Virus record (IMG/VR): IMGVR_UViG_3300025722_000002
Span: 1 to 27,297 of that record
Direction: 5' to 3' (one strand)
DNA length: 27,297 bases
DNA from: a virus
Below are positions 6,984 through 24,320 of the stretch, in pieces. The translations under genes were made by a program, and so were the position numbers. The notes under the pieces were generated by a model. It was given only the letters and a program-made list of their open reading frames with translations. It had not been told where the DNA came from and made no database searches. Positions within the stretch are counted from its first letter, which is position 1, and every line of letters starts with the position of its first letter.

Positions 6984-8885
6984 ATGCCAACCATCCCGCA
7001 GAGCAGCACGCTCAATCACATCCCCGAGCCGGCACGGCAACCGACGCAGCAACGGATAGGCACCGGCACGTTCGATGACAGGACGGCCAAGGAGCGCGTC
7101 ACTGCCGGCCAGCGCGAAGCCGCAGGGCATCAGAAGACGTCGGGCTTCTTCGGGTTGGGCAAGGGTTTGCTGTCACAAGCCGGCTCTCTAATGGCCGCCA
7201 TGCAGAAGCAGGAGGACGAGACAGACCTGGCCGCGGCCAAGAACGCCGTCAACATGCTGGATAAGGATGCGTTCACGTGGATGCACGAGGGGGACAACCC
7301 GTACCTGGCGCGCAAGGGCATCAATGCCGTGAGCGGCATGACCGAGTTTCGAGAGCAGTGGGACAAGGCCGTCGAGGTAAGCGCCGGCGGGCTCGAGTCA
7401 GACGCCCAGCGCAAGCTGTTCCGCGAGGCGCTCGTTGCACGCCAGCGATCCCACTTCGGCGCCATGGGCAAGCTCGCCCTGGCCGGCCAGAAGGAATACA
7501 CCGACAACGCCCGCCTGGTGAACATCGACGCATTCGAGCGGCACGCTGTGCAGCAGGCTGCGGCCGGTGGTAATGCCATGGAGTTCATGGCTGGCGCCGC
7601 GGCCGAGATTAAGATGCGCGGCGTGGGCAATGGCTGGTCGCCGGAACAAGTCGAGGCAGAGCAGGTCAAGAGCCGCACGCGGGTGCATGCTGCCGTTGTG
7701 CAGGACCTGATGGTCAAGGACCCGCAAGGTGCCCAGGCGTACCTCAACTCCATGCCATCAACCGGTGAGGGTGACACGCAGATAGATGCGCGGGTACGCG
7801 CCAGGCTCGAGCAGCTCGTTGAATCCAAGGTCGGCGACCAGGCTGCTCTCGAGGCTGCCGATCAGGCCATCGCCGGCGGCGGCTCCACCAGCGCGCAGCT
7901 GAAGCGCCTGCGCGAGCTCAACCGCAAGGGCGACATCACGGCGAACCAGTACCGCACGGCCGAGTCGAGGGTGACCCGGATGGCTCAGCTACGCTCAGCT
8001 GAAGCGAGCAATGCTCGAGCCGCTGCCGACCGCAGTGCCGTCAACGCCATCATCAAGGGCGGCGCTGATCCGGCCGCATACTTCATGGCAAACCCCGGCG
8101 CGAAGGACCAGGTGTCCGGTGCCGTGTACATGCAGCTGCTCAAGGGTGTGCCGCCTAAATACGACGGCAGGGTGCACGCCACGGTCAACGCCATGGTTGG
8201 TGGGGTGGATAGTCTCGAGGCCCGCGACCTGGCTCTCGAGCAAGTGCATGCGAACAAGCAAAGCCTGACGCCTTCGCAGTACGCAGGCTATATCGAGGAG
8301 CTCGGCAAGTTCGACCCCAACAAGGGCGCCGCTGCAAATGAGTTCACGGGGACCGCGGGTGATTCGCTCGAGCGCTCGATGCTTGGACAGATCGGCCCGA
8401 AGCCAGGAACCAAGGCCACCATGCAGGACCGCCGCGACTACGCCTGGCGCCACGCCGAGGTGCTCAAGGTCGCGCTCGAGCCTGTCCAGGCCTGGCGTGC
8501 GGCTAACGGCCCTGACAAGACCCCACCGCCGGAAGTCCTGCAGCAGGGTATCGACGCGGTGGAGAAGCTCACCACGACGACTGAGGGCTGGTTCACTGAT
8601 ACCGTGGAGGGCTACGGCGAGCTCGACGCCGATGACATGAACAAAGCACGTGACAGCCTGCGTCGCCTGGGCGTTGAGCCCCACGCCGGTAGCATCAAGC
8701 AGTATCTCATCGACCTCGATGGTCGCGATGACACGATGGGGGTCCTGCGCCAGATGATTCGGAACGACCCAGACAAGCGATATACACCTGGTGACAAGGC
8801 AGCCGAGAAGCTGCTCTGGGAGCGATACCTCACCGACGACAGTATGCGCTCTGCTCTGGAGAAGTGGCGAGGCCGCGTTAAGTGA
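6984..8885 (+). CDS. Internal virion protein (T7 gp15-like)
   Basis: A 633-aa, largely helical protein following the gp14-like gene. It opens with a Pro/Gln-rich tail, then a helical body starting 'LAAAKNAVNMLDKDAFTW'. It contains 'NPYLARKGINAV', a repeated Gln/Ala/Arg helix pattern and a conserved-looking 'AQAYLNSM' segment. No transmembrane span and no lysozyme or transglycosylase motif is visible. In T7, gp15 forms part of the periplasmic tunnel with gp16. The start at ATG 6984 follows AGGGGT (6974-6979); the frame extends 14 codons further upstream, but that extension overlaps the previous gene and has no better site. The end overlaps the next start (GTGA). Confidence 0.75.
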   Translation: MPTIPQSSTLNHIPEPARQPTQQRIGTGTFDDRTAKERVTAGQREAAGHQKTSGFFGLGKGLLSQAGSLMAAMQKQEDETDLAAAKNAVNMLDKDAFTWMHEGDNPYLARKGINAVSGMTEFREQWDKAVEVSAGGLESDAQRKLFREALVARQRSHFGAMGKLALAGQKEYTDNARLVNIDAFERHAVQQAAAGGNAMEFMAGAAAEIKMRGVGNGWSPEQVEAEQVKSRTRVHAAVVQDLMVKDPQGAQAYLNSMPSTGEGDTQIDARVRARLEQLVESKVGDQAALEAADQAIAGGGSTSAQLKRLRELNRKGDITANQYRTAESRVTRMAQLRSAEASNARAAADRSAVNAIIKGGADPAAYFMANPGAKDQVSGAVYMQLLKGVPPKYDGRVHATVNAMVGGVDSLEARDLALEQVHANKQSLTPSQYAGYIEELGKFDPNKGAAANEFTGTAGDSLERSMLGQIGPKPGTKATMQDRRDYAWRHAEVLKVALEPVQAWRAANGPDKTPPPEVLQQGIDAVEKLTTTTEGWFTDTVEGYGELDADDMNKARDSLRRLGVEPHAGSIKQYLIDLDGRDDTMGVLRQMIRNDPDKRYTPGDKAAEKLLWERYLTDDSMRSALEKWRGRVK

Positions 8886-11629
8886 GCACGCCCAATCCGT
8901 TTGGTGTTGACACGCTCGCCGAGTCGAGCGCTGCAGCAGCGCCTGCAGTGGACGCCACCGCAGATGTGGCACCGAGCACCGCAGCTGCGGTGCCAGCAGC
9001 CAATGACTCTCCGTTCGCCGGCGTCGACCTGGGCCCTGCCCCGGCCGCTCCCAATGTCGCTGACGACCCGTTCGCCGGTGTCAATCTCCCCGAGGCCCAT
9101 GCGCTCGAGGACTTGACGCAAACGATGGGCCAGGCAGTCGAAACGAACCCGGCCGACGAGTCAGCGCTCGAGGACCTATCGCGCCAGATCGGCAAGGATA
9201 TTGAGTTTACGAGGCGTAACCGCAAGTGGGCCGAGGGCGAGGTGGCCCGCGGGCAAATCCCATTTGATGCCATCCTGTCTGACACGCCCGTCGTGGCGTC
9301 GCACCTGGCTGACATCCAGTTCGCCAAGCAGGCGCACACCAGCGTCCCGGCGCTGACCGACATCGAGCGCGTCATGGGGCTAAGCCTGAGCGACTCGAAC
9401 TACTGGTCGCAGAACGGCAAGCTCGTACAGACCCCGGAAGCCGGCCAGCCGGAGATGTCGATGGTTGATGCGATGGCGAACATCGCGAGCAATCCCACGC
9501 GGATGTTTCAGGGTGTCGGCGCCGCGGCCTGGGCTCGGTATCAGCAGTTTTACAACGACCAGCTGCACAGTCAGATGCAGGCGTATGTGGACGTCAACAC
9601 TCTCGGCGGCAACTATGTTCTGGCAGGAGTTCCCGGCCTGGGTGGTGACGTCGGCATGTTGGGCTACATCATGGAGCGGTATGCCCCTAAGGCGCACGCC
9701 AACCTGCTCAGGGTGCAGAACCAGGTCGCCACGGCCAACGAGCAGTTGAACATCCCTGCTCTGCTCAAGGAATCGAACGAGCTCGAGGAGCAAATCAGGT
9801 CAACCACGCCGGCCGGCATGAACTGGCTCGAGCATGGCATGCGCTCTGGCCTCATCAGCACCGTGACTCAGGTGCCCGCGCTGATGCTCGGCGCCGTCAC
9901 GCGCAACCCCAACACCGCGCTCGCCATAATGGGCTCGCTAGAATTCGGCAACGCTCGCCTCGAGGCAATCAAGGAAGGCATGAACCCGGCCGGTGCGTTT
10001 GTGTACGCGCTCATCAATACCGGCATCGAGGTCGGTACTGAGAAGCTACCAACCGATGCGCTGATGAAGGGGCTGGGCGATGGCTGGAAGGGCAACATCA
10101 AGAATTTCATCCTGTCGGAGATTGGCGGCGAGCAGCTCGCTAGCTTCGGCCAGGCGCTGACCGGTGCCGTCGCGGAGGTCGGTGACCAGGGTAAGGCGAT
10201 ACGGGATGCGTACGAGAAGGGCGACACAGCGAACCTGTGGGAGATAGCCAAGACCACGGCGCGTGACACGCTCGTGTCGAGTGTGACGAGCAGTGCGACG
10301 CAGATTGCCGGCGTGCAGGCCGTGGGTGTAACCACCAGGCGCATCGACCGAGCATTAAGGGACCACCAAAAGCTACAGATGATGGCAGACCTGGCCAACC
10401 GCGCCGAGCTGAGGGTCAACAACCCCAAGCGGTTCGCCGCCCTGGTTAAGGAGATGGGGTTCGAGGCTGGCACCGAGTATGTCTATCTGGACCCGACCCA
10501 GGCCGAGGTGTATCTGCAGCAGCTCGCGCTTCCTCTCGAGGACCCGCTGACCGAGGCGGTCGAGGAGCTCAAGGAGCAAGTCGCCGAGGCGGCCGCCACG
10601 GGTTCTCTGGTCGGGATACCCATCGAGACATTCATGTCGCAGTACGCCGGCACCGAGGTGCACGAAGCGCTCAAGCAAGACATGAAAACCGACCCCGAGG
10701 GCATGACGCTCAACGAGGTATTCAACGAAGACGTGCAGGCGCGCATCGCCGAGTTGCAGGCCAAGGCCACAGACGAGCTCGAAGGCGGCAGCCAGGTCTA
10801 TGACAACGTGTACGACCAGCTGATCAAGGCCAGCACGCCAGCTGACGTCGCGAGCTCCTACGCGCTCGTGCACCAGGCGTTCTTCGAGACGCTACTCGAG
10901 CGCCCAGGGCTGAAGGCGGCCGGCGTCACGATGCAGGACCTGATGGACAAGTACGGGCTGACCATCATGGAGGAGATCGACCCGCGGCTGGCCAAGCACA
11001 TGGAGCAGGTCGACCTGTTCGACATGCAGCTCGACAAGATGCGCGAGGGCTCAATCCCAACAGAGGGCGAGGCCCGCGGCGCTACGTTAGGCGAGACGCT
11101 CGCGGCTGCGGGCATCGACACCAGTGACATGAACATCGACGTTGCGAACGGCGCAGACCTGTCCGGCCTGGCTGATACGGCGCAGTCGATGTTCGACCAG
11201 GGGTTCCTCGAGGCGAACGACCCACAGACGTTGGTCAACGCAGTGCTTGGCGAGCTCGTGGGCAAGCCAACCTACTCGCCGATCAACGCCAATGAGGACG
11301 CGACGGCTGTGTTCGAGCGTGCCCAAGCGCTACAGGAAGTGCTCGACGACAACATGCTCGACCTAAGCCAACTGGACAATGAGGCCGTCCGCAAGGCGCT
11401 GGGCCAGGCCGACGATCAGCGCCTTGAGCAGGATGAAATTGCCGCCGGTGCGGTTACAACTCCGGTGGCGGATGTGCAGGACTTCGGCGAGACTCGCATC
11501 GGAGAAACGGTACAGGTTCGCGAGACGGGCGAGCAGGTCGACATCGTGCGAGATGCGCAGCGCACCTTCGAGCAGGTGGGCAAGCGACGCGGCGTTGTTG
11601 AACAACTAGCTGACTGCATGGGGGCGTAA
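8882..11629 (+). CDS. Large internal virion / ejection protein, 915 aa
   Basis: Starts at GTG 8882, with CGAGG at 8868-8872. The first ~40 residues are an Ala/Pro/Thr-rich tail. Two 'PFAGV(D/N)L' motifs (44-50 and 63-69) and two 'ALEDL' motifs (74-78 and 95-99) follow. Residues ~315-440 form a Gly/Ala-rich, weakly hydrophobic region ('ISTVTQVPALMLGAV', 'GAFVYALINTGIEVGTEKLP') of a kind seen in phage ejection proteins. Beyond this it is acidic and helical. Position after gp14-like and gp15-like genes suggests a gp16-like place in the ejected DNA conduit. No transglycosylase motif is visible, unlike T7 gp16. The family is inferred from context and composition, not from a clear signature. Confidence 0.65.
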   Translation: MSTPNPFGVDTLAESSAAAAPAVDATADVAPSTAAAVPAANDSPFAGVDLGPAPAAPNVADDPFAGVNLPEAHALEDLTQTMGQAVETNPADESALEDLSRQIGKDIEFTRRNRKWAEGEVARGQIPFDAILSDTPVVASHLADIQFAKQAHTSVPALTDIERVMGLSLSDSNYWSQNGKLVQTPEAGQPEMSMVDAMANIASNPTRMFQGVGAAAWARYQQFYNDQLHSQMQAYVDVNTLGGNYVLAGVPGLGGDVGMLGYIMERYAPKAHANLLRVQNQVATANEQLNIPALLKESNELEEQIRSTTPAGMNWLEHGMRSGLISTVTQVPALMLGAVTRNPNTALAIMGSLEFGNARLEAIKEGMNPAGAFVYALINTGIEVGTEKLPTDALMKGLGDGWKGNIKNFILSEIGGEQLASFGQALTGAVAEVGDQGKAIRDAYEKGDTANLWEIAKTTARDTLVSSVTSSATQIAGVQAVGVTTRRIDRALRDHQKLQMMADLANRAELRVNNPKRFAALVKEMGFEAGTEYVYLDPTQAEVYLQQLALPLEDPLTEAVEELKEQVAEAAATGSLVGIPIETFMSQYAGTEVHEALKQDMKTDPEGMTLNEVFNEDVQARIAELQAKATDELEGGSQVYDNVYDQLIKASTPADVASSYALVHQAFFETLLERPGLKAAGVTMQDLMDKYGLTIMEEIDPRLAKHMEQVDLFDMQLDKMREGSIPTEGEARGATLGETLAAAGIDTSDMNIDVANGADLSGLADTAQSMFDQGFLEANDPQTLVNAVLGELVGKPTYSPINANEDATAVFERAQALQEVLDDNMLDLSQLDNEAVRKALGQADDQRLEQDEIAAGAVTTPVADVQDFGETRIGETVQVRETGEQVDIVRDAQRTFEQVGKRRGVVEQLADCMGA

Positions 11630-16610: not shown

Positions 16611-19600
16611 GTGGCATCACTGGCTGACTGCATCCGTAAGGCGGGCAAGGCTCTCGATGGCAAGGACCGTGACGCCCTCGAGGCGTACCTGGCCCACGGG
16701 GCCGATCCGGCCAGCGCTGTCGACGCAGTCGTCGCCGAGCTCGACATGCAGCAGCGCCAGGTAGCGCGCCAGGCCGGCGCCGCTGGGGCCGCGGTGGCGC
16801 CGCTCGAGGCCGAGGTGGTGCAACCCGGCAACGTGCCGCTCAGGCAGCCAGTAGACACGCCCTCATTCGTCACTGACTTCACCACCGACGCCCAGATTGC
16901 CGAGGCCATCCGCGAGAACCCCGAGCGATTCGAGGGCAAGCTCGAGCGCATCGAGACGGTCATGACGCCGCAGGAGTTTCTCGCACGAGTACAGGATCAG
17001 TTCGGCGAGCGCGACTCGATGGAAGGCGTCGAGCAGGACGTCGTCGACGGCTACGTCGAGAGCATGCGCAACGGCGACGTGTTCCCTGCCGGGTTCCTGG
17101 GGTACGTCAGGAAGGATGGCGCCACGAGCAACGACCATGGCGGGCGTCATCGTGCCCTAGCGGCAATCGAGGCGGGTGTTGAGTCCATGCCTGTGGTTGT
17201 CGTGCGTAACGCGACGGGCGAGGTCGACCCGCGCTCCGAGGTGCCACGTGTGGCGCAGCTGCCTCAGCGCCTCGATCAGGGTGTCGGGCATAACGGTGGC
17301 CCTTCGATGCGCGAGCCCAGCGTCAACGGGCAGGACGAGGACGGCAATCACCCGTTTAGAATTTCAACGCGCCAGGCCGCGGGGCCGCGTGCGACCGAGA
17401 ACCCGCTCGAGGACAACCTGGTCATCGGCGTCGAGCAGTTCACGTCGCTGCCTGAGGCGCCAGAAGGCGTCGACCCGTCGGATGGCAGGACACCTGGCGT
17501 GGGCGGCACCAAGACCCGCGCCGCGTTCCTGGCCATGCAGGCCGGAGGGTTCAAGCCAACGGTATCGTGGGACAACCCCGATCAGGTCATCGAGGAGTTC
17601 ATCGCTCACGTTAAGGAGAACCTGCTGTGGATTCACAACAACATCGACCCGGAGATACGCGAGCGCTCACGGCGCTGGTATGACGGCGCTCGAGCGCTGA
17701 CATCCCGCTGGGCTGATCGGTTCGGCATTCCCGATCATGCGATGGCTGGCGTGTTCGCAGCGCTGTCACCGCAGAAGGATTGGTTTGAGAATATCAGCCT
17801 GGCTGAGCGGGTCGTCGACCTACACTTCAACGTGCTCGAGGATGTCGGCGCCGCCACGCCTGAGATGATCGAGTGGGCAGAGTGGAAGTACGGGCCCAAC
17901 GGTTACGTGTCGGAGATATACGGCAAGCAGCGGCGAGCCAAGGCCGAGAGTGCCAAGGCCAACAAGCGAGGGCGGCTCGCTCGGCTGGCCCTGCCAGAGG
18001 GCGACAAGGGGCGCAAGCAAACCCATGCAGAACGCAAGGGCAGGTTCGAGAGTCGCGGCTCTCTCGAGGACCTCGAGAACTTGCGACGGGTGCTGCAGTC
18101 AGACTACGCGAGCCTGACGTCGACCAAGGACCGAGCGATGTGGTTGCGTGCCTACGACGAGGCACACAACGAACGCGGGCACCGGGTGCTAACACCCGAG
18201 GGCGACTTCATCGGCGAACCTCGAGGCACCACCTCGTGGAACTCATACGGGGAGATGTCCAAGGCGCTCGCGGTTCTGGATGACATGTCGTTCGAGGGGG
18301 TCAGCGCAGCAATGGGCGACGCGCACAAGGTGCGCAACTTCTACAACAACATCCTGTCGCCAAACAACGACTACGGCGACGTGACGATTGACACGCACGC
18401 TATCGGCGCCGGCCTGATGCTGGCCGTCGGCAGCTCGGCCGCGGAGGTCTTGAAGAACTTCGGCGGGTTCAGCTCTCAGCACACGGGCATCCGCGGCATT
18501 TACGGCATCTATGCGGAGGCATATAGGCAGGCAGCTGCCGAGGCCGATGGCGGCCCCATCCTCCCTCGCCAGATACAGTCCATTACGTGGGAGGCTATTC
18601 GCACAGCGTTCCCAGCCGACTGGAAGACCGATGCCAACCAGGCAGCGGTTCGCGATATGTGGGATAATGGGGCCACCAAAACAAGCGCGGAGAGAGACGA
18701 TGTCCGACAAGCTATCCTCGACCTGGCCGGAGGCGTTTTCCCCGCTCCCGAGTGGGCAAACCCTGACGACGCCGGAGCTGCAGCGGATGCGAGCCCAGGA
18801 GATTCCTCTTACGCCAATGGACTGGGCCGAGTTCGTGAGGGAGGGGGACGGCCTTACACCGGAGGAGACCGCGGGCTGGCTAGCCGAGACGGAGTGGCCG
18901 CCGGAGTTCCCGCAAGACTGAACCAGTTTGCGGGTGAGCAGGCCCGCAACGTCCCGCCTGGCGCCGCTCGCGCCGAAGAGATGCTCGACCAAGGCCGCAA
19001 CGCCGCGTACGTTCAGCGAGAGACTGGCTGGACCCGCGGCGCTGACGGCTATATGCGATTCGAGATTGACGACAGCCAGGCGACGCTGTCGATACCCGAG
19101 CCCGTGAAGGACCCCGACGCCCTGTTCGGTGATCCAGGTCGCATTCACGACGACCTGGTTGCGTTGAGCGAAGACATCAGAGGGCTGTTACGGCCTCATC
19201 ACATTGCTGCAATGCTGGACGAGACGGGCTGGAATTACACAAGCAATCCGCGGTTTGTCTCCGTTCTCAGAATATCCCTCACGGACAATGGCTGGGAGGA
19301 TGGCCCCGCGGGGGCGTTCGCCAAGGAAATCGCAGCGACGATGTCGTTGCGCAACATGATCCTCAGCGGCGAGCAGCCTACGACAGACCAGGCGGCGCAG
19401 GCCTTGGCTGCAGCTCGCGACTCTGGTATCGGCAGCAAGCGCTCGAGCGCCCCGCTCGACAAGGTCCTCGACCACCCGCGCCTATTCGAGGCGTACCCAT
19501 CGTTGCGTGACATCACGGTTGAGGTGCGGCCGTTACCTGGCAATACGCTCGGCCAGTGGAACGTGCAGAGCCAGACGCTGGTGATGTCGCCCAAGCTCGC

Positions 19601-22600
19601 CGAGCCTGAGATGCTGACAACCGTATTGCACGAGGTCCAGCACGCTATCCAATCCCTCGAGGGGTTCGCCCAGGGTGGTAACTCGAGCCCACAGATGAAG
19701 GCGCTGGCGGTCGAGGCATACAAGTCGGCGTCGTCGGCGTTTAGTCACGAGTTCGATAGCTGGATGCGCGTGCACTTCGGCGACGTCATGCCCGAGATGA
19801 TGGACGCCTACGAAGCGAAGGCCCTGGAAACGGTGCACAACGCACACCTGTATGGCGACATGCTGAAGCTGCGCGAGTACGTGGCTCGAGACAAGCTGAC
19901 CACGGTAGGGCGTCACGTTCGCGGACTGCTCGAGTGGGCGCACCATCCAGAGTTTCGAGAACTAGACCCTCAGCTTACCCGCGACCTCTCGGCGTGGGGT
20001 GGCAGCGCGCCAAAACGTCGGAGCAAGGACTACAACGAATGGCTGCGGAGGTCATCGCTGCGCATGGCGGCCGCCATTGAAACGAGGCTGGGGCCGTCGT
20101 GGCTGGCGACGTTCGAGAGCGACCCTCGAACGGTGAGAACAATACAAGCAGCCGCGTCCAAGGCCTATGGCGCCGCTGTCGCCACGGTGGCCCCTGGCCG
20201 AGCGCTCCGCAAGAAGCATGTCGAGCTACAGAACCAGCTGCACGACGTCAAGTACGCCAGCAGTTATGAGCTCTACCACCGCTTGGCCGGTGAGGTCGAG
20301 GCCCGCGCCACTCAGGCGCGCATGCACCTGAACGCAGCCGAACGTCGCGAGGCCCCTGTGGCACATCGGCGTGATATGTCCGGCGCTCCACGAGCAACTG
20401 AGGACGTGGCACGCGACGACCAGTTCGTCGTCTGGCACAACCGCAACGTCGCGCTGCCGGCGCCAGCCGCGCTCAACCAACCGAAACCCGTCGCGAGCGC
20501 GCCCGAGGCTCGAGGCTATTACGAGCCGGCCAAGCGTCGCATCGTGCTCGGCCGCGGCAAGGACAAGAGCACATTCCTACACGAGAGCGCGCACTACTTC
20601 CTCGAGGTGATGCGCGACGCTCAGACCATCGACCCATCTATTGCCAACGACCTGGCGGCCGCAGAGACGTGGTTCCGTAGCCAGGGCGCCAAGGACGAGC
20701 GCACCAGGCACGAGCTGTTTGCAAGCGGCTTCGAGACGTATCTCATGGAGGGCCGCGCCCCGAGTCGCGAGCTCGCCAGCGTGTTCAACAAATTCCGCGC
20801 CTGGCTCATGCACCTGTACCGCAACCTGCTGCGCTCGAGCCCGTTCGGCACCAACAAGCTGGGCGGCGCCGAGCTCAACGACCCCATTCGCGAAGTCTTC
20901 GACCGCATGCTGGCGACCGACGACGCCATCCTGGCGGCTCGAGAAGCGGCCGGCCAGCGCAACGAGCTGCCGCTCGATGGCCTGGGCTTAGACGACGATG
21001 CACGCGCCCAAGTGCAGGACGCGATGGACGCAGCCGCGGAGGAGGCCACCGCCCAGCTGACCGTCGAGATGATGAAGGACCTGCAGCGCGACACGACCGC
21101 GTACTTCAAGGACGTCGAGCGCCGTCGCCAGGCCGACGCGGCAGCTGAGCTCGAGCGCGACCGCGATGTGGTGACCTGGGACTTCTTGACGTCGGGCCAG
21201 GTCAGCGACCGATTCTCTGCAGCGACGGCAGCCCTCGACGGCACAGATGCGTTCAAGCTCAACGCCAGCCAGGTGCGGGCACTAACCGACGCACCGCGCT
21301 CGAGGCGCATGAACCGACTGACGGCCAAGGATGGTGTCGACATCGACATCGCGGCCAGCGTGCTGGGGTACTCGAGTGGCGCCGAGCTCGTCGAGGCCAT
21401 GGCCAACACCATGACCAAGGCAGAGCGCAAGGCATACGCCAAGGCAGAGGGCACCAGGCGCGCCAAGGCCGAGGTGTCCGAGATGGACGACGACACCATT
21501 CGCACACGAGCTGCTGCAGCAGTGCACGCCGATCAGACCGGCGAGTCCCTGGTGCGCCAGATAGCGGCGCTGCGCCGGCAGATGGGCAGCCAGGAGCAAC
21601 CAGGCGACATCCGCGGCCAGTTGCGAGCTGCGGCCGAGGCCGCCACAGCCAACGTCCCGCTGCGCAGCCTGCGGCTAGGGCAGATACAACGCCAGGAGCA
21701 GAAGTGGGGCGACGCGGCCGTGCAGGCAGCTGCTCGAGGCGATGCGCAGGCGACGCTCGAGGCCCTCACGCGCCAGGCACACCAGCACTACATCTGGAAG
21801 GCGGCCAAGGCACAGCTCGAGCAGGCCGAGAAGTCTCGAGCTCTGGCCAAGTCCATGCGCCGCGGTGTGCGCTACGACCGGGTCAAGGCGTCAGGTGACA
21901 TCTACAAGAACGCGCTCGACACAGTCCTTGCTGTGTTCGACTTCCGGCGCAAGGGCGGCAAGCCTGTCGACGTGCAGGCGCTGCGCTCGCAGCTGCTCGA
22001 GACGGCCGGCTTCGCCAATCCTGAAACGCCACACGATGCGCTGCCCGAGGAGGAGCGTGCGCTGCGCCGACAAGAAGAACGTGAAGACGCCCAGGCGTTC
22101 GGTATGGACATCCCCGGATTGACCGCACTGCTTGACCAGGACCAGGTGCATTACCTGAGCCTGACGGGTGAGCAGCTCGCCACCGTGCACCAGGCGCTCG
22201 AGATGCTCGAGGGCGCCAGTCGCTCGAAGGCGTTCATGCTGGCCCAGGGTCGGCGCGAGGCCCTCGAGGTAGCGCAGGCCAAGCTGCTGCGCACGATGGA
22301 GCTCAATGCCAAGCACGCGCCCAAGGTCGACACGTTCGGCGGCGAGGACCTCACTGTCCTCGAGAAGACCAGGGCCGTCATGGATGGCTCGCTGACTATA
22401 TCCAACCTGGTGCGGATGCTCGATGGCTACCAGGACGACGGCGACGCCTGGCGCCTCATCGGGCAGCCATTACAGGATGCGGCCGTCGCCGAGTCTGAGA
22501 TGCTCAACGCAGCCAACGAGGAGCTCGGCGATCTGTTCGACCGATACTACGGCGCTCGAGCTCAGTCGCGCATGAAAGCCAAGACCTGGGATGAGAACCT

Positions 22601-24320
22601 GGGCACCGGCATCAGCAAGAACGACGCGCTCACTGTGCTGCTCAACTGGGGCACCGAATCCAATCGGCAGCGAGTGCGTGACGGCTGGGGGTTTACCGAC
22701 CAGCAGGTCGAGTACATCTTCGGCAAGTACATAGACCAGTCCGATGTCGAGTTCGCCCAGGGTGCCTGGTCAATGCTCGAGGGGCTGTGGCCGCAGACGG
22801 CGCAGCTGCACCGGGACATGTACGGATTCACGCCGCCCCGTGTGGAGCTCACGACATTCGAGGTCAATGGCCAGGTCGTTGCCGGCGGGTACTTCCCAAT
22901 CAAGTACGACCCCAAACAATCAGCCAAGGCCGAGGAGCACGCGCTGACCGGCGAGCACCACTCCGGTGACCGTCTAGGTGCGAAGCCCAAGCACGGCGCC
23001 GCACAGGCCCGTGTGGCGCGTGTTAAGGGCCGGCCGCTACGCTCGGACGTGCTCGGCGTGATGACGGCACACCTGACCGATACGCTCCATCATGTGACGC
23101 ATGATCGCGCACTGTTCGATGTCGGCCGGCTGCTGTCCAACGATGACGTCAAGACGGCGATGCAAGGGCAGTACGGCGAGCACGTCTACGACTACTTGAC
23201 TAGGCGAATCCGCCAGATGAGAGACGGTGCCAGCCAGTTGCACGACATGCAGGATGCGTTACTCACCAAGGTGCGCAACAACGCGACCATCGCAATGCTC
23301 GGCGCCAGCATGCGCACGACGGCGCTGCAGGTCTTCGGCGTGACCAACTCGGTGGTGCGGATGCGGATGTCAGGCATCGGCGTGCACAGCGTCGTTGCGG
23401 CGTACGCTCGCATGAGCAAGAACCCCGCGGCCGCCAGCGCTCGAGCGCAGGAGCTCAGCGGGATGATGCGCACCCGGATGAACACGCAGAGCATGGCGCT
23501 GCAGCGGATACGCAACCGCATTCAAACGAACGGGGGCATCACTGACGGGCTCAAGCAGGCGGTCATGTTCCCTATCGTGCAGTCGCAATACTGGGGCGTT
23601 GACCTGCCAACCTGGATGGCTGCATTCGACCATGCGTCGAGCCTAGGCAAGAGCGACGACAACGCAGCCAAGTGGGCAGACCAGGTGGTGCGCACCGCGC
23701 AGGGCGGCGGCGGCCCGATGGACACGACGACCCACATGGACGATGCGCAAGGCGGCCCGTGGCGCAAGCTGTTCACCAACTTCCTGACGTACACCATGAC
23801 CACCTACTCGCTACAGGTGGAGAACAACCGGCGCACCGGCCTGGCTATGAAGGCAGACGACGCGAGCGCGCTCGACAAGATGGCGGCCGGGTACAACTGG
23901 TCGGTCAATACGTTCGTCACCATGTCGGTGCCAGCCATCCTCAACGCGATGCTCGGCGCCTGGGTTGCCGGCGACGACGAAGACACCCCGTTCGAGGAGC
24001 GCCTGGTGCGTGAGCAGGTCGGGTTCTTCTTGGGCATGAACATCTTGACTGCGCAGCTCTCAGGCATGGCACAAGGGTTTGACTACAGTGGACCACAGGG
24101 GCTGTCTGTCATCCCGGCATTCACGCGCCTGGTGAAACAAGCGCAACAAGGCGAGGCCGACCAAGCGGCCGCCAAAGCTGCGATACAAACCATAGGCCTG
24201 CTGTTCGGTCTGCCAACCACACAGATAAATCGGTCAATTTTCGGGTACATTCACGCGCAGGAAACTGGCGCAGACGTGCCATCCACTGTTAAACAAGTCC
24301 TGTTTGGACCGGAGCGCTAA
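16611..24320 (+). CDS. Giant polyvalent ejection protein, 2569 aa (ParB-like, glycosylase-like, two zincin motifs)
   Basis: Starts at GTG 16611, 8 bases after GGAGA. Domains in order: (1) residues ~115-205, ParB-like, with 'MTPQEFL' and 'HGGRHR' (176-181); (2) ~330-700, with 'RRWYDGA' (354-360), 'AALSPQKDW' (383-391), Lys573 in 'HKVRNFYNNI' and Asp594 in 'VTIDTHA', resembling HhH-GPD glycosylases; (3) low-complexity linker ~720-770; (4) ~785-1060, with 'TGW' (805-807) and HEVQH (1007-1011) then 'EGFAQGG'; (5) ~1290-1400, with HESAH (1324-1328) and Glu1368/Glu1375 as possible third zinc ligand; (6) long helical and coiled-coil regions ~1440-2300; (7) hydrophobic segments near 2431-2452 and 2470-2490. 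The mixture matches the 'polyvalent proteins' of phages and conjugative elements, thought to enter the host with the DNA. The position beside ejection genes fits packaging in the virion. Confidence 0.8.
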   Translation: MASLADCIRKAGKALDGKDRDALEAYLAHGADPASAVDAVVAELDMQQRQVARQAGAAGAAVAPLEAEVVQPGNVPLRQPVDTPSFVTDFTTDAQIAEAIRENPERFEGKLERIETVMTPQEFLARVQDQFGERDSMEGVEQDVVDGYVESMRNGDVFPAGFLGYVRKDGATSNDHGGRHRALAAIEAGVESMPVVVVRNATGEVDPRSEVPRVAQLPQRLDQGVGHNGGPSMREPSVNGQDEDGNHPFRISTRQAAGPRATENPLEDNLVIGVEQFTSLPEAPEGVDPSDGRTPGVGGTKTRAAFLAMQAGGFKPTVSWDNPDQVIEEFIAHVKENLLWIHNNIDPEIRERSRRWYDGARALTSRWADRFGIPDHAMAGVFAALSPQKDWFENISLAERVVDLHFNVLEDVGAATPEMIEWAEWKYGPNGYVSEIYGKQRRAKAESAKANKRGRLARLALPEGDKGRKQTHAERKGRFESRGSLEDLENLRRVLQSDYASLTSTKDRAMWLRAYDEAHNERGHRVLTPEGDFIGEPRGTTSWNSYGEMSKALAVLDDMSFEGVSAAMGDAHKVRNFYNNILSPNNDYGDVTIDTHAIGAGLMLAVGSSAAEVLKNFGGFSSQHTGIRGIYGIYAEAYRQAAAEADGGPILPRQIQSITWEAIRTAFPADWKTDANQAAVRDMWDNGATKTSAERDDVRQAILDLAGGVFPAPEWANPDDAGAAADASPGDSSYANGLGRVREGGGRPYTGGDRGLASRDGVAAGVPARLNQFAGEQARNVPPGAARAEEMLDQGRNAAYVQRETGWTRGADGYMRFEIDDSQATLSIPEPVKDPDALFGDPGRIHDDLVALSEDIRGLLRPHHIAAMLDETGWNYTSNPRFVSVLRISLTDNGWEDGPAGAFAKEIAATMSLRNMILSGEQPTTDQAAQALAAARDSGIGSKRSSAPLDKVLDHPRLFEAYPSLRDITVEVRPLPGNTLGQWNVQSQTLVMSPKLAEPEMLTTVLHEVQHAIQSLEGFAQGGNSSPQMKALAVEAYKSASSAFSHEFDSWMRVHFGDVMPEMMDAYEAKALETVHNAHLYGDMLKLREYVARDKLTTVGRHVRGLLEWAHHPEFRELDPQLTRDLSAWGGSAPKRRSKDYNEWLRRSSLRMAAAIETRLGPSWLATFESDPRTVRTIQAAASKAYGAAVATVAPGRALRKKHVELQNQLHDVKYASSYELYHRLAGEVEARATQARMHLNAAERREAPVAHRRDMSGAPRATEDVARDDQFVVWHNRNVALPAPAALNQPKPVASAPEARGYYEPAKRRIVLGRGKDKSTFLHESAHYFLEVMRDAQTIDPSIANDLAAAETWFRSQGAKDERTRHELFASGFETYLMEGRAPSRELASVFNKFRAWLMHLYRNLLRSSPFGTNKLGGAELNDPIREVFDRMLATDDAILAAREAAGQRNELPLDGLGLDDDARAQVQDAMDAAAEEATAQLTVEMMKDLQRDTTAYFKDVERRRQADAAAELERDRDVVTWDFLTSGQVSDRFSAATAALDGTDAFKLNASQVRALTDAPRSRRMNRLTAKDGVDIDIAASVLGYSSGAELVEAMANTMTKAERKAYAKAEGTRRAKAEVSEMDDDTIRTRAAAAVHADQTGESLVRQIAALRRQMGSQEQPGDIRGQLRAAAEAATANVPLRSLRLGQIQRQEQKWGDAAVQAAARGDAQATLEALTRQAHQHYIWKAAKAQLEQAEKSRALAKSMRRGVRYDRVKASGDIYKNALDTVLAVFDFRRKGGKPVDVQALRSQLLETAGFANPETPHDALPEEERALRRQEEREDAQAFGMDIPGLTALLDQDQVHYLSLTGEQLATVHQALEMLEGASRSKAFMLAQGRREALEVAQAKLLRTMELNAKHAPKVDTFGGEDLTVLEKTRAVMDGSLTISNLVRMLDGYQDDGDAWRLIGQPLQDAAVAESEMLNAANEELGDLFDRYYGARAQSRMKAKTWDENLGTGISKNDALTVLLNWGTESNRQRVRDGWGFTDQQVEYIFGKYIDQSDVEFAQGAWSMLEGLWPQTAQLHRDMYGFTPPRVELTTFEVNGQVVAGGYFPIKYDPKQSAKAEEHALTGEHHSGDRLGAKPKHGAAQARVARVKGRPLRSDVLGVMTAHLTDTLHHVTHDRALFDVGRLLSNDDVKTAMQGQYGEHVYDYLTRRIRQMRDGASQLHDMQDALLTKVRNNATIAMLGASMRTTALQVFGVTNSVVRMRMSGIGVHSVVAAYARMSKNPAAASARAQELSGMMRTRMNTQSMALQRIRNRIQTNGGITDGLKQAVMFPIVQSQYWGVDLPTWMAAFDHASSLGKSDDNAAKWADQVVRTAQGGGGPMDTTTHMDDAQGGPWRKLFTNFLTYTMTTYSLQVENNRRTGLAMKADDASALDKMAAGYNWSVNTFVTMSVPAILNAMLGAWVAGDDEDTPFEERLVREQVGFFLGMNILTAQLSGMAQGFDYSGPQGLSVIPAFTRLVKQAQQGEADQAAAKAAIQTIGLLFGLPTTQINRSIFGYIHAQETGADVPSTVKQVLFGPER
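18689..18696 (+). promoter_or_regulatory. Strong internal ribosome binding site for the nested gene
   Basis: GGAGAGAG lies inside the giant gene, with GGAGA ending 6 bases before an out-of-frame ATG at 18700. Its strength and spacing equal or exceed those of accepted genes in this window, and it has no obvious purpose in the long reading frame. Confidence 0.55.
18700..18921 (+). CDS. Nested overlapping gene, 73-aa acidic protein (unknown function)
   Basis: An open frame in +1 relative to the giant gene, starting at ATG 18700 behind GGAGAGAG. The 73-aa product is acidic and looks protein-like: 'LTTPELQRMRAQEIPLTP', 'MDWAEFVREGDG', 'LTPEETAGWLAETEWP', ending 'PEFPQD', with four Trp and well-spaced helices. 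By hand count about 82% of its codons end in G or C. Over the same bases the giant frame drops to about 54% and reads as a Gly/Ala/Asp/Arg linker; it is about 67-76% on either side. The third-base signal therefore moves to the nested frame. I do not recognise a family. It could be a small regulator, inhibitor or accessory factor. The alternative is a chance open frame in GC-rich DNA. Confidence 0.6.
   Translation: MSDKLSSTWPEAFSPLPSGQTLTTPELQRMRAQEIPLTPMDWAEFVREGDGLTPEETAGWLAETEWPPEFPQD

Follow-up and report, generated by a model that had tools for sequence, protein, structure and literature searches.

Probable retention of a small acidic protein gene, out of frame, at the DUF7178 domain of a giant phage virion gene

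The nested frame in the giant virion gene

We analysed a 27,297-bp virus record from IMG/VR (IMGVR_UViG_3300025722_000002, here called the window), in which a short reading frame lies out of frame inside the gene of a giant polyvalent virion protein. The gene content of the window is that of T7-like late genes, with a major head protein, two tail proteins, an internal virion protein, a lysozyme-like protein and large proteins, followed by a tail-fibre gene. The giant gene (16611..24320) encodes 2569 amino acids (aa) and occupies the place of the last of the T7-like internal virion proteins; it and all features within it are on the plus strand. A preliminary description of the sequence had pointed to a nested frame of 73 aa with a ribosome-binding site upstream, and it was found exactly there: it begins with ATG at 18700, ends with a TGA at 18921, lies in frame +1 relative to the giant gene and is preceded by the Shine-Dalgarno (SD)-like GGAGAGAG at 18689..18696, read from the sequence. 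We call its product P0001. On one side, the giant protein carries a DUF7178 domain (17604..18755; PF23802, E 5.3e-24, 85.6 bits against a cut-off of 27) and on the other an LPD23 domain (18924..19088; PF18838, E 6.1e-16), which starts at aa 772, right after the nested stop codon. The doubly coded stretch between them (18756..18921) reads as a Gly/Ala/Asp linker in the giant frame and thus does join two domains, as had been proposed.

The two frames differ in base composition. G+C at codon positions 1, 2 and 3 is 0.644, 0.534 and 0.822 in the nested frame and 0.819, 0.653 and 0.542 in the long frame over the shared bases, and third-position G+C (GC3) of the long frame is 0.676 in the 222 nucleotides (nt) upstream and 0.757 downstream of the nested gene. 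These values agree with the earlier hand counts of 82%, 54% and about 67-76%. Among all 74-codon stretches of the giant gene, the long-frame GC3 over the nested gene falls at the 0.24th percentile. That the frame is open by chance, as GC-rich DNA allows, and is no gene at all has to be considered here: the nested site remains open in 62% of synonymous-codon shuffles of the long frame, and an open reading frame of at least 73 aa with ATG and SD site arises somewhere in the +1 frame of the giant gene in 53% of them. Since openness is expected by chance so often, it carries no weight as evidence; support beyond chance comes from the codon-position signal and, above all, from the comparative data.

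P0001 has an isoelectric point (pI) of 4.05 and a net charge of -10. Its structure, modelled from the window sequence, is predicted to comprise three helices, with a block at residues 21-70 reaching a predicted local distance difference test (pLDDT) score of 84-90, in keeping with the folded acidic protein that had been anticipated. Neither P0001 nor its three-sequence alignment gave any match when used as search queries, the protein being too divergent, and relatives were reached through DUF7178 instead.

A family of small genes at the 3' end of DUF7178

Searches with DUF7178 yielded a set of loci in which the +1 frame at the 3' end of the domain was then inspected, and a small protein was found to be encoded there. 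Where DUF7178 has its own gene, the start of the small gene mostly lies 10-90 nt before the DUF7178 end, beyond which the small gene then continues; an SD-like site usually precedes the small gene. Other phages have a DUF7178 frame that is about 60-100 codons longer and covers the small gene, and in yet others, the window included, this frame continues into additional virion domains for anything from 150 to more than 1000 codons. We also scanned 2.9 million viral contigs with a degenerate DNA pattern for the core motif P-[hydrophobic]-T-R-E-[NQKH]-Y-[hydrophobic]-x-L-A, a pattern that is independent of DUF7178. At least 120 matches were obtained and, according to profile searches, all but four of the matches listed lie over or just past a DUF7178 3' end. 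The four exceptions are two matches at the edge of the DNA that nevertheless have a DUF7178 tail (L144 and L207), one cut at its first base (L158) and one accompanied by DUF7178 on the opposite strand (L179). In the last, the small gene (L179:1986-2150, plus strand) is convergent with DUF7178, the ends nearly touch and the small gene has its own GGAGG.

Among the matches listed there are 93 distinct small genes, 37 of which overlap DUF7178 partially while 53 are fully nested, 2 adjacent and 1 far (the inverted copy on the opposite strand). SD matches of at least 5 nt stand ahead of 48 of 96 distinct small genes, compared with 2.5% of random sites. The fully nested copies lie in frame +1, as do nearly all copies, a regularity that would also be expected if the small frame extended DUF7178 by way of a +1 frameshift and so yielded a fusion of the two rather than a free protein; the small frame of the window is, moreover, open for 82 codons upstream of its start. 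In 41 of 92 relatives, however, an in-frame stop codon lies no more than 10 codons ahead of the start, and in 68 of 92 no more than 25 ahead. Together with the strong SD sites, the separate copies in frame +2 (L106 and L201) and the inverted copy, these stops stand against such a fusion, so that we consider frameshifting very unlikely. In two loci, L120:9700-10170 (minus strand) and L205:990-1433 (plus strand), the small gene is present twice in tandem, downstream of DUF7178. A nested pair also occurs in a prophage of Bradyrhizobium elkanii WSM2783 (L093).

Selection was assessed as the ratio of nonsynonymous to synonymous differences (pN/pS) in eight groups that have the overlap. The nested frame gave ratios of 0.18-0.46, whereas the long frame over the same bases gave 0.52-2.50, exceeding 1.3 in six of the eight groups, even though outside the overlap it is constrained on both sides (0.07-0.35 upstream and 0.09-0.32 downstream). 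Judged from these codon comparisons, the nested frame is under purifying selection and the long frame over the shared bases mostly is not. Comparison of the window with its nearest kin over the overlap points the same way (Z of 7.6 for the nested and 2.0 for the long frame against L033; 7.35 and 2.07 against L024). The codon-level analysis of both frames that had been called for therefore places protein-level selection on the nested frame, the opposite of selection on the long frame only or of relatives with a broken nested frame. Since a conserved family of proteins is encoded at this position, the nested frame is under selection and SD sites are enriched, a chance open frame has become very improbable.

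Small frames of a second group (group B, L047-L080) occupy the same place, with a nested-frame pN/pS of 0.30 and an hhalign probability to the main family of 23%; as homology to the main family was not established, they were excluded from the family counts. A different-looking small frame, which ends in ...ILSG..., takes up this position in nested form and is subject to selection in L061, L077-L080, L053, L067, L074 and L076.

Taken together, the sequences define an undescribed family of mostly acidic, apparently helical phage proteins of about 50-120 aa (median pI 4.48), whose genes are situated at the DUF7178 3' end. The family exists, is by the codon evidence under protein-level selection, usually has its own candidate ribosome-binding site and, in all arrangements observed, adjoins DUF7178. 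Searches of Pfam, PHROGs and PDB folds placed the small protein in no family, and tblastn of two members against INPHARED found nothing. P0001 showed a weak 10-residue match to DUF7462 (PF24261)/phrog_2093 of 15.5 bits, below the cut-off of 27, and the other members tested gave no match to DUF7462.

The window gene lies at the DUF7178 3' end in frame +1, and P0001 resembles the family in sequence. By alignment, its IPLTPMDW (18802..18825) is the counterpart of the core motif P-x-T-R-E-x-Y-x-x-L-A, with the Arg of TRE not kept. Alignment of P0001 with the family by hhalign gave P 5.7e-5. Against the family profile without the nearest kin, L033 and L024, the empirical p was about 0.003; once these two were included, no shuffle in 3000 scored as well, and among 3000 synonymous shuffles one did. 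Several points weigh against membership or against a general need for the small gene. P0001 is divergent and alone scores just 5.5 bits against the family; the searches revealed no near relative of the window, which precludes a measure of selection on its own lineage; and some DUF7178 genes lack the small gene (L003-L017), which is hence not strictly required. On balance, we are confident that the 73-aa frame is a genuine gene, which belongs to the small-protein family as a divergent member and was probably retained when DUF7178 became fused to downstream virion domains. DUF7178 proteins without the small gene (L003-L017 and CRP-738, which is L021) often have a hydrophobic Gly/Ala-rich tail, PSWxxYxGxRRxI...AGLxG...GLASA.

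Origin of the nesting and possible role of the small protein

The preliminary description had left open whether the small gene was retained in a tolerant linker or overprinted onto it. Retention is the better reading, because the homologues beside DUF7178 take many forms: some are separate genes, some overlap it partly or are nested in it completely, and others are duplicated in tandem or inverted. Since the small gene also exists without coding overlap, its de novo overprinting was rejected. A quick tree of DUF7178 joins the window to L033 and L024 (97*), and on it the nested or not-nested state changes at least 7 times; L033 was wrongly entered as 'none' in this count, being below the score cut. 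Such change counts give no direction, and stop-loss fusion as the route to nesting is consequently likely, not proven. By this route, the DUF7178 gene would in some lineages lose its stop codon and fuse in frame with downstream virion domains; the small gene would thereby be trapped in the resulting linker and kept. Ribosomes would initiate within the giant gene, at 18700, to produce the small protein as a subunit of its own. In its present form the linker sequence largely results from the small gene's codons being read in a different frame.

As to what the small protein might act upon, the AlphaFold2 model of the DUF7178 domain (pLDDT 89) is almost all-alpha and apparently HhH-GPD-like. Its 12 best chains in VIA-align are all HhH-GPD-like, with Z from 8.1 to 5.4 and the next unrelated row at 2.8, and include the queuine salvage enzyme DUF2419, AGOG, hOGG1 and MUTYH. 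K242 and D263-T-H are invariant in 63 DUF7178 sequences and presumably fit the Lys/Asp layout of HhH-GPD enzymes. Other results speak against this assignment: a VIA Z near 8 can be chance among helical folds, Foldseek of the model found nothing significant in the PDB, and no sequence-profile link to HhH-GPD was found (hmmscan without PF00730; 0.2% by hhalign with PF00730 and EndoIII/MutY). Against a viral structure library the model matches other phage proteins, mostly from uncultured Caudovirales. DUF7178 is rare in bacterial genome surveys (3 of 385 and 1 of 369 genomes, centre genomes included).

Given the apparent resemblance of DUF7178 to HhH-GPD N-glycosidases, the role that we favour, tentatively and at somewhat less than even odds, is that of a cognate antagonist: the small protein would bind the DUF7178 domain and keep it inactive in the producing cell, and would not be part of the ejected chain. 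This model draws on the acidity of the protein, its linkage to DUF7178 and the fold lead. The role of regulator or inhibitor, on which the preliminary description had speculated, is plausible. The small protein might instead serve the DUF7178 part of the virion protein as a packaging or ejection chaperone or as a structural subunit. The constant neighbourhood, the acidic helical protein and the virion context fit an escort equally well, as do the two tandem copies in L120 and L205; on the other hand, neither the sequence nor the fold of the small protein matches a known chaperone, and the tie is to DUF7178 while the downstream domains vary among phages. We hold such an escort for a serious possibility, though short of an even chance. 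The antagonist idea can be carried further to an effector-antidote pair encoded in one gene, in which an HhH-GPD-like glycosidase is ejected and the nested acidic inhibitor left behind at ejection, so that the enzyme would be active only in the next host; this we regard as rather unlikely.

Elsewhere in the giant protein, the C-terminal half matches phrog_9880 (2231 aa). The C-terminal part of phrog_9880 matches aa 1299-2564 of the giant protein and its N-terminal part the product of 8882-11629, as if one virion protein had been split and other genes placed between. Residues 80-215 (about 16848-17255) look ParB-like by eye, with no Pfam match.

Comparison with known systems

The giant protein, with its DUF7178 and LPD23 domains, can be compared with the phage polyvalent proteins (PMC5512222). 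That paper makes no mention of 'overlap' or 'glycosylase', and no mention of DUF7178 was found in the literature searched. The data bring to light a protein family that lacks annotation and is linked to a phage virion domain, and they give a testable idea of the role of DUF7178. Gene callers can miss nested copies: the phage record OP947163.1 has a single coding sequence across the region where L022 has a weaker small-gene candidate (18 bits).

Small phage proteins that block a glycosylase are exemplified by Ugi and p56, some of them acting as DNA mimics (PMC3794593). The likeness to the small protein would be one of function only, with no homology claimed and acidity as the feature shown here. 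Ugi and p56 target an Ung-type uracil-DNA glycosylase met in the host, whereas the target proposed here is the phage's own HhH-GPD-like domain.

The closest parallel in gene arrangement is offered by the two-component spanins Rz/Rz1, which occur in embedded, overlapped and separated architectures (PMC6139136). As in the spanins, the small gene lies out of frame inside its partner gene or over its end and is often missed by annotation. Unlike the Rz1-like o-spanin, P0001 is not a lysis protein: it has no cysteine and hence no lipobox. No spanin family that mixes embedded with other architectures is reported in PMC6139136, whereas here one small-protein family spans separate, overlapping, embedded and inverted genes. 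Embedded genes are usually single curiosities; this family also includes duplicated copies, and others that are covered by a fused virion protein reaching 2569 aa. A stop-loss route to nested genes has merely been proposed for the spanins (PMC6139136), and the range of arrangements in the present family makes it directly testable.
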